NCBI RefSeq assembly: GCF_014654725.1
Contig: NZ_JACVZV010000015.1
Coordinates: forward strand, 62,001-126,000
Source of the DNA: Vulcanococcus sp. Clear-D1
GTDB taxonomy: Bacteria; Cyanobacteriota; Cyanobacteriia; PCC-6307; Cyanobiaceae
DNA length: 64,000 bases
Direction: 5' to 3'
Shown: piece by piece, positions 41,061-49,138 of the stretch
Layout: every line of letters starts with the position of its first letter
How positions within the stretch are numbered: position 1 is the stretch's first letter
Program-made: the position numbers and the translations under genes
The notes under the pieces: generated by a model
Database searches by the model: none
What the model was told of the DNA's origin: nothing
Seen by the model: the letters and a program-made list of their open reading frames with translations, nothing else

Positions 41061-41638
41061 CAACGTTGGCCCATCACCAGCTGATAGGCCGGGCGCTGCT
41101 GGGTGGCAGCGATCGTGGCTTGCACCTGGGGGAAGGGGCTGAGGTCGATCTGGGGGAAAAAGATCGGCAGGTACGCGAGGTAAGCGTTCACGGCGCAGTC
41201 GGCCACGCTCCAGGCGCCGCCCATCAGGGGGCCTTCGCCAAGCTTGCGATCCAGCACCTCCATCAGCCGCGGGAATTCGCGCTCGCGATTTGAGGGCACA
41301 AACAGCGCTGTGGCCAGGGTGGCGTTCGCGAACAGCACCCACTGCTGGGCCAGGCCGCGCTCGGCCGCGTTCTGGCATTCGCCGCCATAGCGCTCAGCCA
41401 GGTACAGAAGGATGGCTCCGCTCTCGAACAGCTGCAGGCGCCCGCCGGGCAGGGCGGGATCTTCATCCACAAGGGCGGGCACCTTGCCGAAGGGGTTGAT
41501 CGCCGTGAAGGGCTCCTGCCGGTGCTCGCCGGCCTCCATGTCGAGCAGCTGCCAGGTGTAGGGGATGCCCTTCTCCTCCATGTACCAGCGGGGCATGGAT
41601 GCCCGGCTGCGGGCACCGCCGTAGAGGGTGAGGGCCAT
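41060..41638 (-). CDS. Glutathione S-transferase
   Basis: 192 residues from ATG 41638 (MALTLYGGARSRASMPRWYM). Thioredoxin-like N-domain with the NPFGKVPALVDED cis-Pro segment and LFESGAILLYLAERYGG (SNAIL-like), then the helical C-domain with LMGGAWSVADCAVNAYL. The Ser at about residue 10 is a likely catalytic residue. Its start codon shares CATG with the start of the divergent fusion gene. Confidence 0.85.
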   Translation of the reverse strand: MALTLYGGARSRASMPRWYMEEKGIPYTWQLLDMEAGEHRQEPFTAINPFGKVPALVDEDPALPGGRLQLFESGAILLYLAERYGGECQNAAERGLAQQWVLFANATLATALFVPSNREREFPRLMEVLDRKLGEGPLMGGAWSVADCAVNAYLAYLPIFFPQIDLSPFPQVQATIAATQQRPAYQLVMGQR

Positions 41639-43826
41639 GGATGCGATCAAGCAGAGGCGGGCTGCTCAGTATCGGGCTGGGTTGCCGCTGCTGTGGCCCG
41701 CCGGCCTCAATGGCATCACAGTGGTGTTAACGCACCTCCCGCCTGTGGTTTTGCAGAACGCCGCGCTGCTGCGCCTGGCTCCCCTGCTCGTTCCGCAGCC
41801 CCGCCGCGGCGTGGTGGGCAGCAGCCGCTATGCCCGCAGCCTCCGCGATGCCGTGCGCCTTGCCGCTCAGGATCCGCAGCGGCGTCCGGTGTTGATCAGC
41901 GGTGAGCCCGGGCTGGAGAAAGACAACCTGGCGGCGCTGATCCACTACGGCTCCCCGCAGCGCCAGCAGCTGATGTTGCGATTTGATGGCGCGCTGCTGA
42001 AGCCAGATGGCAGCGAGGTGTTCGGCGCGGGATCCGATGGGGCGGAACCGCCATTGCTGGAGTTGTTGGGTGAGGGCTCGCTGCTGATCGACAAGATCGA
42101 TCAGGTGCCCGCTCCGCTGCAGGAACAGTTGCTGGAGCTGGCGCGGAGCGGGCAGTGGTATGCGGGCGGCACCGTGCACACGTTTGCGGGGCGCTTGTTC
42201 TTCACAGCGGAGAGCAGCCTGCCGGCCCTGGATCGCTGCTGCACGTTGATCCGGGTGCCGCCGCTGCGGGTGCGCCGTCAGGACCTGGGCGAATGGTTGC
42301 GCTACGGCGTGCGTCAGCGCAGCCGCAAGCTCGGCTGGCCTGCGCCACCCCAGGTTCCGGAGGCGGTGGTGAAGCGTCTGCAGAGCTACGACTTCCCCAA
42401 CAACCTGCGGGAGCTGGAGGTCCTGATCTATCGCGCCCTGCAGCAGGTGCGCCGCCAGGGGCAGGACTGGCCGTCTGTGCTGCCCGACGACGTGTTCTGG
42501 ACAGCTCCGCGCCAGCAGCGCCTGCGCTTCGACATCTGGCGCTGGAAGCCTCAGCTCAGGGAGTGGATGCGGGCGCCATGGCTCTGGAACGGATTGCTGT
42601 TCGCTCTGGTGAGCTGGGTGTTTGTGCTGATCAACCTGTGGTTGTGGCTGGGTCCGCAGGAGCGGCAGCACAACGGCGCCCTCAATCTGTTCTGGGCCTG
42701 GTGGTGGCCGCTGATCCTGCTGGGTTTTCCGCTGGTCGGACGCCTTTGGTGCTCCTTTTGTCCGTTCATGGTGTGGGGGGAGATCAGCCAGCGACTGGCC
42801 CGGCGCCTGGGCTGGCAGCTGCAGCGCTGGCCGAGAGGCGATAGCGACAGCTGGGCCTCGCCGCTGCTGGCGGCCGGCTTTGCGCTGATCCTGCTGTGGG
42901 AGGAGCTCTGCAACCTGCAGAACACCGCCTGGTTGAGCAGTTGTCTGCTGTTGTTGATCACCGCGGGAGCGGTGATCGGTTCGCTGTGCTTCGAGAAGCG
43001 CTTCTGGTGCCGTTACCTCTGCCCGGTGGGCGGCATGAACGGTTTATTCGCCAAGCTCGCCATCACCGAATTGCGCGCCCAGGTGGGCACCTGCAGCGGG
43101 AGTTGCAGCACCTACGCCTGCTTCAAGGGCGGCCCCGCCGACGGTGAAGGCCTGGCCACCGCCGGTTGCCCGCTCGGCACCCATCCGGCTCACCTGGCCG
43201 ATAACCGCAACTGTGTGCTCTGCCTCACCTGCGTTCAGGCCTGTCCGCATCGCTCCGTGCAGCTCGTTCTGCGGCCCCCGGCGGCCGATATCCAGCGGGA
43301 GATGACCCTGCCCCCTGGCGAGCCTGCTCTGTTGCTCGTGCTTGCCGGTGATGTGTGCCTGCACCACTGGCAGCGCCTGCTGGGTTGGAGTGCGCTGGCA
43401 CCGGCCAGCCTGGTGGAGGGGCCCTGGCTGCCTCGATTGGCGGCGGCAACCCTGGCGCTGGCTGTGCCCTCGGCGCTTTTTTTGTTGGCCCGGATCTGGT
43501 TTTCTCAGGCCCGGCTGATCCGCACCCTCTACGGGTTGTTGCCCCTGGTCTGGGCTCTGCTACTGGCGCGCCACCTGCCGATCGGCATGGCCGAAGCCGG
43601 AACCCTGCTTCCAGTGTCGGGTCTGGTGGCTGCTCCGGCCTGGAGTGCTGATCCCCATGTGATCGCGTTCTGCCAGAGCGTCGCCGTGGTGCTGGGGCTC
43701 AGCTGGGCGGTAGTGCTGCTCCGCCGTCAACTGGCCCGCACGCGTCGGGCTTGGCTGGGGGCTTCGGCTTTGGCGGTGTTGCTGGCGGCGGCAGGTCGTT
43801 GGCTGGTGGCGCTCCCCTTCGCTTGA
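41637..43826 (+). CDS. Degenerate NtrC-type AAA+ domain fused to membrane polyferredoxin
   Basis: 729 residues from ATG 41637. Residues about 58-290 follow an enhancer-binding-protein AAA+ layout: GSSRYARSLRD, ISGEPGLEKDNLAALIH (Walker A, altered), GEGSLLIDKIDQVP (Walker B with Lys for Glu), VPPLRVRRQDL and YDFPNNLRELEVLIYRAL; the GAFTGA loop that contacts sigma-54 is missing. Residues about 310-480 and 555-729 hold several membrane helices. Cys motifs CSFCPF, CRYLCP, CSGSCSTYAC, CPLG and CVLCLTCVQACP form NapH/NosR-like 4Fe-4S sites. Probably a redox membrane protein with a regulatory head. Overlaps the GGCT gene by 128 bases at its 3' end. Confidence 0.8.
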   Translation: MDAIKQRRAAQYRAGLPLLWPAGLNGITVVLTHLPPVVLQNAALLRLAPLLVPQPRRGVVGSSRYARSLRDAVRLAAQDPQRRPVLISGEPGLEKDNLAALIHYGSPQRQQLMLRFDGALLKPDGSEVFGAGSDGAEPPLLELLGEGSLLIDKIDQVPAPLQEQLLELARSGQWYAGGTVHTFAGRLFFTAESSLPALDRCCTLIRVPPLRVRRQDLGEWLRYGVRQRSRKLGWPAPPQVPEAVVKRLQSYDFPNNLRELEVLIYRALQQVRRQGQDWPSVLPDDVFWTAPRQQRLRFDIWRWKPQLREWMRAPWLWNGLLFALVSWVFVLINLWLWLGPQERQHNGALNLFWAWWWPLILLGFPLVGRLWCSFCPFMVWGEISQRLARRLGWQLQRWPRGDSDSWASPLLAAGFALILLWEELCNLQNTAWLSSCLLLLITAGAVIGSLCFEKRFWCRYLCPVGGMNGLFAKLAITELRAQVGTCSGSCSTYACFKGGPADGEGLATAGCPLGTHPAHLADNRNCVLCLTCVQACPHRSVQLVLRPPAADIQREMTLPPGEPALLLVLAGDVCLHHWQRLLGWSALAPASLVEGPWLPRLAAATLALAVPSALFLLARIWFSQARLIRTLYGLLPLVWALLLARHLPIGMAEAGTLLPVSGLVAAPAWSADPHVIAFCQSVAVVLGLSWAVVLLRRQLARTRRAWLGASALAVLLAAAGRWLVALPFA

Positions 43827-47897: not shown

Positions 47898-49138
47898 GGA
47901 ATCTCTGGATAAACGGGGCAAAGCGGCGGCAGTGAGCACGAAAGAGTGCCTTGGACCATGAATTGCTTTTGAGACGATTTTCTGATGACTTCTGGCCTCG
48001 TATTCATCCACTCTGGGCTGGTTCTTGAGGCTGAATCGCTCGTTTCAGCCATACCAATCCCATACTCAGGCTGTTGCGAGCAATTGCCTTCGGGCCTGGA
48101 AAAGATTCGATAGTGCTGCCAGCATGTGGATTTTGCAGCGGTTCTTGGCCAGGCCGCGCAGCCTGGTGTTCTGAAAGCCGAACTGCTGCTTGATCACGCG
48201 GAAGGGATGCTCGACCTTGGAGCGGATATGAGCTTTGGCCGTCTCGATCAGATCCTGCAGCTTTCCATCTGGTGTATCCGGTAGAGCCCTGCGTTTGCCA
48301 GGTCGCATCGCCACCCTGAATTCCGTTGCCTTGCGTGCCATCTCAGGTCTCTTGGCGATTCCCTGGTAGCCGGCATCGCCGTAAACGACCTCCTCATCAC
48401 CGTGGAGGAGCTCTGCCGCGGGAGTGAGGTCATGCACGTTGGCGGCGGTGACGACCACTGAATGGATCAGGCCCGAGTCCTTGTCCACACCGGCGTGGAC
48501 GTTCATGCCGTAGGCGCAGCCTTCCGCGAAGCGGTGATACCACTGGTTGCCCTTTTTCGTCTGGTGCATCTCCGGATCCCGCTTCCCTGCCTTGTTCTTG
48601 GTGGAACTGGGTGCGGCGATGAGGGTGGCATCGACGATCGTGCCTTGCCGCATCGTCATGCCCCGCGCACTGAGGTGGGCCTTGACGGTTTCAAAAACCT
48701 GCTCGCCCAGCTTGTGCTTCTCCAGCAGGTGGCGGAAGGTGAGGATTGTGGTCTCATCCGGGATCCGATCGCTGATCAGCTCGATACCGGCAAAGCGACG
48801 CATGGTGGGTACCTCGATCAGGGCCTCCTCCATCGCTGGATCGCTCAGGGAATACCACTGCTGCAGCAAGTGAATGGTCAGCATCGTCGCCAGGGGGTAA
48901 GGAGGGCGGCCGCCTTTCTTGTTCGCTTTGGGGTAGTGGGGCTCAATCAGATCGATCAGTGCCTGCCAGGGCACCACCGCCTCCATCTCAGAGAGAAACT
49001 TCTCACGCTTGGTCTGCTTCTTGGCCGTGGTCAGCTCGTAATCCGAGAAGCCGAGCTGCTTGCCACCCATCAACTCTGTCCCGGCCTGGCATTACAGGGC
49101 CATTGTCGCGTGGATCGCTCGGGTTTCCCAGACTCTCC
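47898..49138 (-). mobile_element. IS5-family insertion sequence
   Basis: 1241 bases bounded by imperfect inverted repeats: left GGAATCTCTGGATAAACGGG, right (read inward) GGAGAGTCTGGGAAACCCGA, about 14 of 22 positions identical. The sequence is flanked by CTAG at 47894-47897 and 49139-49142, the four-base target duplication usual for IS5. One intact transposase gene; 168 bases of noncoding DNA at the left end. The element is probably recently active because the gene is full length and both ends are intact. Confidence 0.88.
48066..49073 (-). CDS. IS5-family transposase
   Basis: 335 residues. DDE catalytic residues: Asp in TIVDATLIAAPSSTKNK, Asp in VVYGDAGYQGI, and Glu in the R-x3-E-x6-K signature (HIRSKVEHPFRVIKQQFGF). 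The N-terminal helix-turn-helix-like part and the QQWYSLSDPAMEEAL block are typical of the IS5 group. No frameshift or internal stop. Confidence 0.95.
   Translation of the reverse strand: MMGGKQLGFSDYELTTAKKQTKREKFLSEMEAVVPWQALIDLIEPHYPKANKKGGRPPYPLATMLTIHLLQQWYSLSDPAMEEALIEVPTMRRFAGIELISDRIPDETTILTFRHLLEKHKLGEQVFETVKAHLSARGMTMRQGTIVDATLIAAPSSTKNKAGKRDPEMHQTKKGNQWYHRFAEGCAYGMNVHAGVDKDSGLIHSVVVTAANVHDLTPAAELLHGDEEVVYGDAGYQGIAKRPEMARKATEFRVAMRPGKRRALPDTPDGKLQDLIETAKAHIRSKVEHPFRVIKQQFGFQNTRLRGLAKNRCKIHMLAALSNLFQARRQLLATA

Follow-up and report, generated by a model that had tools for sequence, protein, structure and literature searches.

A sigma-54-activator-type AAA+ head without its motor residues, fused to a membrane iron-sulfur protein in cyanobacteria

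What does a domain built like the motor of a sigma-54 activator do on a membrane protein, in a genome in which no sigma-54 gene was found? The window, a stretch of 64,000 nucleotides from Vulcanococcus sp. Clear-D1 (contig NZ_JACVZV010000015.1, positions 62,001 to 126,000), raises this question with a single gene, whose product joins a head of the bacterial enhancer-binding protein (bEBP) type to a multi-span iron-sulfur tail. Our preferred reading, to which we assign a probability of about one half, is that the protein is a membrane Fe-S electron conduit carrying a non-hydrolysing, bEBP-derived regulatory head on its cytoplasmic side. Literature searches, mostly judged without full text, found no paper on this family or on its combination of head and tail; in the accessible part of PMC8305020, matching terms fell in reference titles only.

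The gene and its bEBP-type head

The gene is conserved and lies in an open reading frame at 41628–43826 on the forward strand, which encodes 732 aa if read from the GTG at 41628. An earlier sequence-only reading had placed it at 41637–43826; this frame is real, with 41637 an in-frame ATG inside the longer one. The likelier true start is the GTG at 41745 or the TTG at 41751, giving about 693 aa, because alignments with most full-length relatives set in at residues 42–54 of the 732-aa query, because the nearest relative (L036, 94% identity among the best 80 of at least 529 matches) begins 19 residues ahead of the RRGVVG motif, and because a GST-like ORF runs divergently from the gene, starting at 41650 or at an in-frame ATG near 41638. 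Residue numbers refer to the 693-aa form counted from 41745. Apart from this gene, the window contains an ORF at 48066–49073 on the reverse strand, which we take to resemble an IS5-type transposase.

Pfam analysis of the head (residues 18–240; 41796–42464, forward strand) bore out the NtrC-like AAA+ layout that had been proposed for it, with a match to Sigma54_activat (PF00158) at 33.1 bits (cut-off 20.2) and one to AAA_lid_14 at 26.6 bits, just below the cut-off of 27. Its best PDB matches are sigma-54 activators, PspF being the top match by sequence (E 1.1e-12). AlphaFold2 models reached a mean pLDDT of 82.9 and a pTM of 0.70 for the window protein, and 82.0 and 0.55 for a Fischerella relative with a cNMP domain (L091). 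Among the matches listed by Foldseek (50 rows), the window head showed a TMt of up to 0.72 to 3m0e, and among those listed for L091 its head showed a TMt of 0.82 to the same structure (rmsd 2.2); among the VIA-align matches listed, 226 residues of the window head aligned to 1ny5 with a Z of 19.3 and an rmsd of 3.7. The family shares with bEBPs (PspF, NtrC1, NtrX; PF00158) the fold of AAA+ core and lid and the layout of P-loop and PPLR, whereas it differs from them in the residues that make the domain a motor.

To describe these residues, we aligned 124 distinct sequences (114 of type I, to which the window protein belongs, and 10 of a sister type II) out of 146 collected, admitting only ORFs with the WCRY motif and removing rows that shared identical last 600 aa. 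Alignment with PspF revealed that GERGTGKE has become GEPGLEKD, LDEL has become IDKI, and ATN of sensor I has become TAE. The FRADLLDR segment of PspF, presumably its Arg-finger region, is mostly gone, and the motif FRxDLxxR occurs in 0/124 family rows. The altered Walker A was found as claimed at 41901, where the degenerate P-loop GEPGLEKDN (41901–41927, forward strand) ranks first in conservation among the 9-mers of the head and fifth among those of the whole protein. Written as GExGLxKDN, it is the head's best conserved stretch. Among the 113 type I rows aligned there, Lys and the following Asp are invariant and Asn comes next in 112; the last Gly position has been taken by Glu in 94 and still has Gly in 16. 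In Walker B (SLLIDKID, 42078–42101, forward strand), Lys does replace Glu, at 42090, with the correction that the Asp is retained and the Glu alone is lost; this Glu is present in none of the 113 aligned type I rows and none of the 10 type II rows. The sensor I Asn position (42210–42212, forward strand) holds Glu in 113/113 aligned type I rows, and the sensor II Arg is retained in just 67/113.

The claimed loss of the GAFTGA loop also held, since the L1 segment, whose place is at 42027–42053 (forward strand), is gapped against PspF and the motif is found in 0/124 rows. According to the accessible part of PMC7057263, this loop makes the sigma-54 contact, and Glu108 and Asn64 form the glutamate switch. 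By its sequence, the head is without means of touching sigma-54 and is probably a pseudo-ATPase in which hydrolysis of ATP has been lost. Nucleotide binding is another matter: a P-loop Lys that never varies, together with the Gly seen in 16/113 type I rows, leaves room for it, which counts against our preferred reading.

The head nevertheless functions, although it is not a motor, because its P-loop stretch is its best conserved part and because it is under purifying selection. In 13 of 18 chosen pairs (the remaining pairs contained rows absent from the deduplicated alignment), dN/dS was 0.07–0.34 for the head and 0.07–0.32 for the tail; the head value exceeded the tail value in 11 of the 13, which also weighs against the preferred reading.

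A search for sigma-54 (PF04552) gave no match in the window genome, which is 99.97% complete, and matches in 4 of 14 control genomes; this agrees with the expected absence of rpoN, and the presence of sigma-54 after all was rejected for this genome. Across the phylum, a threshold of E 0.001 gave matches in 6/194 genomes, of which one (G125) exceeded the cut-off and five stayed under it. The one over it, from the same class, has a 202-aa ORF (L158, 1459–2067) matching the sigma-54 DNA-binding domain at 62 bits, a rarity. An earlier survey, as given in the accessible part of PMC3162934, found sigma-54 and its activators missing in all 29 cyanobacteria examined. Since no sigma-54 gene was found and the head has neither the sigma-54 loop nor the catalytic Glu of Walker B, it is very unlikely that the family is a sigma-54 regulator, and the non-transcriptional role suggested for the head is likely.

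The membrane iron-sulfur tail

The membrane part (42576–43808, forward strand) has nine predicted spans, whose limits were drawn by hand along the model's helices, and its cytoplasmic loops are positively charged. It had been described as a multi-span polyferredoxin with at least five Cys clusters; the spans stood, but the clusters proved to be four motifs comprising 12 Cys, all invariant in the 124 family sequences. Two are pairs within the membrane region, Cys336/339 (CxxCP, 42750–42761, forward strand) at the end of span 2 and Cys422/426 (CxxxCP, 43008–43022, forward strand) after span 4. The other eight Cys form a ferredoxin-like domain (43092–43244, forward strand) with the motifs C450, C454, C459, C475 and C490xxC493xxC496xxxC500P, predicted to bind two [4Fe-4S] clusters; its Fer4 match lies under the cut-off. 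Residues 275–510, covering the Fe-S and inner membrane part, showed a mean top-residue frequency of 0.79, compared with 0.61 for the head and 0.57 for the C-terminal spans. Lys and Arg numbered 39, 5, 10, 3 and 1 in the loops on one side and 1, 0, 0, 0 and 0 on the other, and because of these charges the head and the Fe-S domain would both lie on the cytoplasmic side.

The NapH/MauN family is defined by membrane CxxCP/CxxxCP pairs together with ferredoxin-like Cys motifs, and the window family has both. However, the window protein scored 40.1 bits against NapH/MauN (TIGR02163) over the Cys motifs, far under the cut-off of 213.05 and a point against the preferred reading, as did two relatives (51.6 and 41.2, same cut-off); it also differs in having five extra C-terminal spans and a regulatory head. 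Fer4_5 of Pfam was exceeded at 26.6 bits (cut-off 22), and among the 25 NCBIfam models listed, none was over its cut-off. All fold-search matches listed for the window and L091 models by Foldseek and VIA-align were to the AAA head. NosR is a membrane polyferredoxin whose N-terminal part is regulatory or sensory; it has a flavin domain there where the window protein has a bEBP-derived head. Outside the family, a 4Fe-4S protein on plasmid pDFI1 of Deinococcus ficus (DFI_RS15945) showed 29.9% identity over query residues 255–548, but it has 452 aa and Fer4_5 as the only domain found, and the ORF upstream of and overlapping it had no Pfam match. Not a sigma-54 activator, and by cut-off not a NapH either, the window protein would at most work as a conduit of the NapH/NosR type to which a regulatory head is joined.

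Distribution, the cNMP domain and the type II subfamily

The fusion, sought in other cyanobacteria, proved widespread. Family members were found in 57/194 phylum genomes at E 1e-10, five of them through the tail only, and, when a full-length relative served as the query and types I and II were pooled, in 101/145 sampled class genomes at E 1e-40; G181, the genus mate of the window among these 145, gave no family match. A scan of genome contigs yielded at least 529 relatives, and the 80 best were retained. A quick tree was built from 68 of the 124 sequences, taking all of type II and alternate type I rows; 25 rows were flagged for deviating composition. In this tree, the picocyanobacterial clade and type II each formed one branch with an SH-aLRT of 100.

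An N-terminal cNMP domain (PF00027) was present in 31 of the 46 members of alignment A2, counted over the whole of this set of 15 picocyanobacterial and 31 other sequences. Pfam gave no PF00027 match in the window protein, and picocyanobacterial members have no cNMP-type N-terminal stretch ahead of RRGVVG. On the strength of this count and this missing stretch, we infer that the domain was lost once in the picocyanobacterial clade and separately elsewhere, for example in L020. Three genomes (G398, with the gene at L174 243–3608, G404 and G412) carry members with two tandem bEBP-type heads behind one cNMP-like stretch, in open frames of 1134–1137 aa (1121 aa from the ATG in L174); the P-loops of L174 are GEAGVGKVN in the first head and GEPGLGKDN in the second.

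When the neighbouring genes of 81 type I loci (the window and the best 80 of at least 529 relatives) were clustered, picocyanobacterial loci shared neighbours in as many as 27 of 45 cases, a pattern resembling general synteny. Among the 36 loci outside this group, no neighbour was seen at more than 6. The neighbour check that had been proposed therefore found recurrence in picocyanobacteria and no conserved neighbour beyond them; a conserved type I operon was rejected, with no partner found, and this too counts against the preferred reading.

Type II proteins have about 900 aa and 36–40% identity to the window protein, and members were seen on Aulosira laxa and Pseudanabaena galeata plasmids. 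Two plasmid members of the family carry the annotations 'nitrogen assimilation regulatory protein' and 'cyclic nucleotide-binding domain-containing protein'. Their P-loop has GKT in 10/10 rows, and Asn stands at the Walker B Glu position in 10/10. At 7 of 12 type II loci, one of the next two genes downstream, in the same orientation, is cysteine-synthase-like, as identified by annotation in L116 and L117 and by Pfam PALP in L119. Comparison of type II with type I loci by tblastn (0.22 Mb and 1.48 Mb in total, L120 and L164 being near-identical type II loci) gave cysK at 7/12 versus 3/84, psbA at 4/12 versus 1/84, rhodanese at 4/12 versus 0/84 and Rieske petC at 3/12 versus 0/84; L120, L121 and L122 had none of these four. 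Because cysteine synthase, and often a psbA variant, Rieske protein or rhodanese, adjoins it, type II has a probable connection with photosynthesis at low oxygen or with sulfide, and it may be a control point for life with sulfide. This link is with type II and not with the window's type I, a further point against the preferred reading; the window gene has no such neighbours. At L120 and L164, CCG, Fer4 and FAD oxidoreductase genes adjoin the type II gene, possibly as a sulfur cluster; they are of the kind seen in heterodisulfide-reductase-like sets. Rhodanese and bd oxidase genes lie near the type II gene of L163. None of the terms cysteine synthase, cyclic nucleotide or 4Fe-4S appears in the accessible parts of PMC5061849, PMC5776472 and PMC8002359, which deal with cyanobacteria adapted to sulfide. 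Taken as a whole, the sequence-only reading was partly supported; it had been made unaware of the wide spread of the family, of the cNMP domain usual outside the window's clade and of the sulfur-linked sister subfamily.

Proposed role and alternative explanations

In the preferred reading, the protein would be of the NapH/NosR kind and carry electrons between a soluble partner and the quinone pool of the membrane, a role suggested by its resemblance to NapH. Electrons would run through the two cytoplasmic-side CxxCP/CxxxCP pairs and the ferredoxin-like domain with its two predicted [4Fe-4S] clusters. The head, derived from the AAA+ domain of a sigma-54 activator, would gate or sense this path, serving as a module for binding or oligomerisation, and the sensing role suggested earlier fits such a module. 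In most non-picocyanobacterial relatives, the cyclic-nucleotide-binding domain would feed into the head; picocyanobacteria would do without that input. The Fe-S clusters, quinone link, sidedness, head gating and oligomerisation are all putative. The family would be a clear example of an AAA+ motor turned into a pseudo-enzyme, and a sister form that has changed less, type II, still exists. In cyanobacteria, it may be a point at which electron flow is controlled and which has so far gone unrecognised. A more far-reaching version, which we offer tentatively and consider rather doubtful, is that a sigma-54 activator ring became a cyclic-nucleotide- and nucleotide-responsive valve on an Fe-S conduit, that type II belongs to a gene set for sulfide or low-oxygen photosynthesis, and that the type I site was rebuilt, with P-loop Lys-Asp-Asn and sensor-I Glu, as a non-nucleotide site.

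AAA+ proteins that help metalloenzymes provide a precedent for a different role, in which the head is a chaperone that helps put clusters or metal into the tail or a partner complex. The invariant P-loop Lys and the GKT of type II are consistent with such an assembly or maturation factor, as is the position of the bd oxidase genes at L163, two places upstream of the type II gene on the same strand. However, the Walker B Glu is missing in 123/123 aligned rows, the Arg-finger motif is absent too, and presence of the family among 145 genomes did not track bd oxidase or NiFe hydrogenase: it overlapped with bd oxidase in 50 genomes against 46.7 expected and with NiFe hydrogenase in 34 against 30.6 (overlaps counted by hand, hydrogenase taken over its cut-off only), so no association with either was found. 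We regard this explanation as unlikely.

The same P-loop residues could instead make the head a sensor of nucleotide or energy charge that binds nucleotide without hydrolysis and signals to the Fe-S part. GKT in all 10 type II sequences, where Asn replaces the Walker B Glu, and the Lys invariant in type I argue for it, whereas Glu at the last P-loop Gly in 94/113 type I rows would disturb phosphate binding, and we judge such a sensor improbable.

Descent of the head from transcription regulators suggests a membrane-tethered, redox-responsive regulator working with sigma-70. In the accessible parts of PMC3162934 and PMC10274813, bEBPs without GAFTGA (VpsR, TyrR, and NtrC of R. capsulatus and Caulobacter) are reported to act with sigma-70; like the window family they have lost the sigma-54 contact loop, but they are not described there as fused to a membrane Fe-S part. 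The window family would also be a regulator without an evident hold on DNA: no DNA-binding Pfam family was found in the window protein, in eight relatives scanned singly or in the 46 members of A2, and membrane spans occupy the place of the usual C-terminal helix-turn-helix. A tethered regulator is therefore distinctly improbable.

That the head is a decaying relic on a tail that alone is functional can be largely dismissed, since the low dN/dS of the head and its conserved P-loop outweigh its faster change relative to the tail and the few shortened or split genes. The shortened heads belong to three proteins of 657–658 aa (L168–L170 in G324, G205 and G201, group g96), in which GEPGL[EG]KDN is still present. 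The split type I gene, L172 in G257, is divided between one open frame of 467 aa and another of 235 aa.
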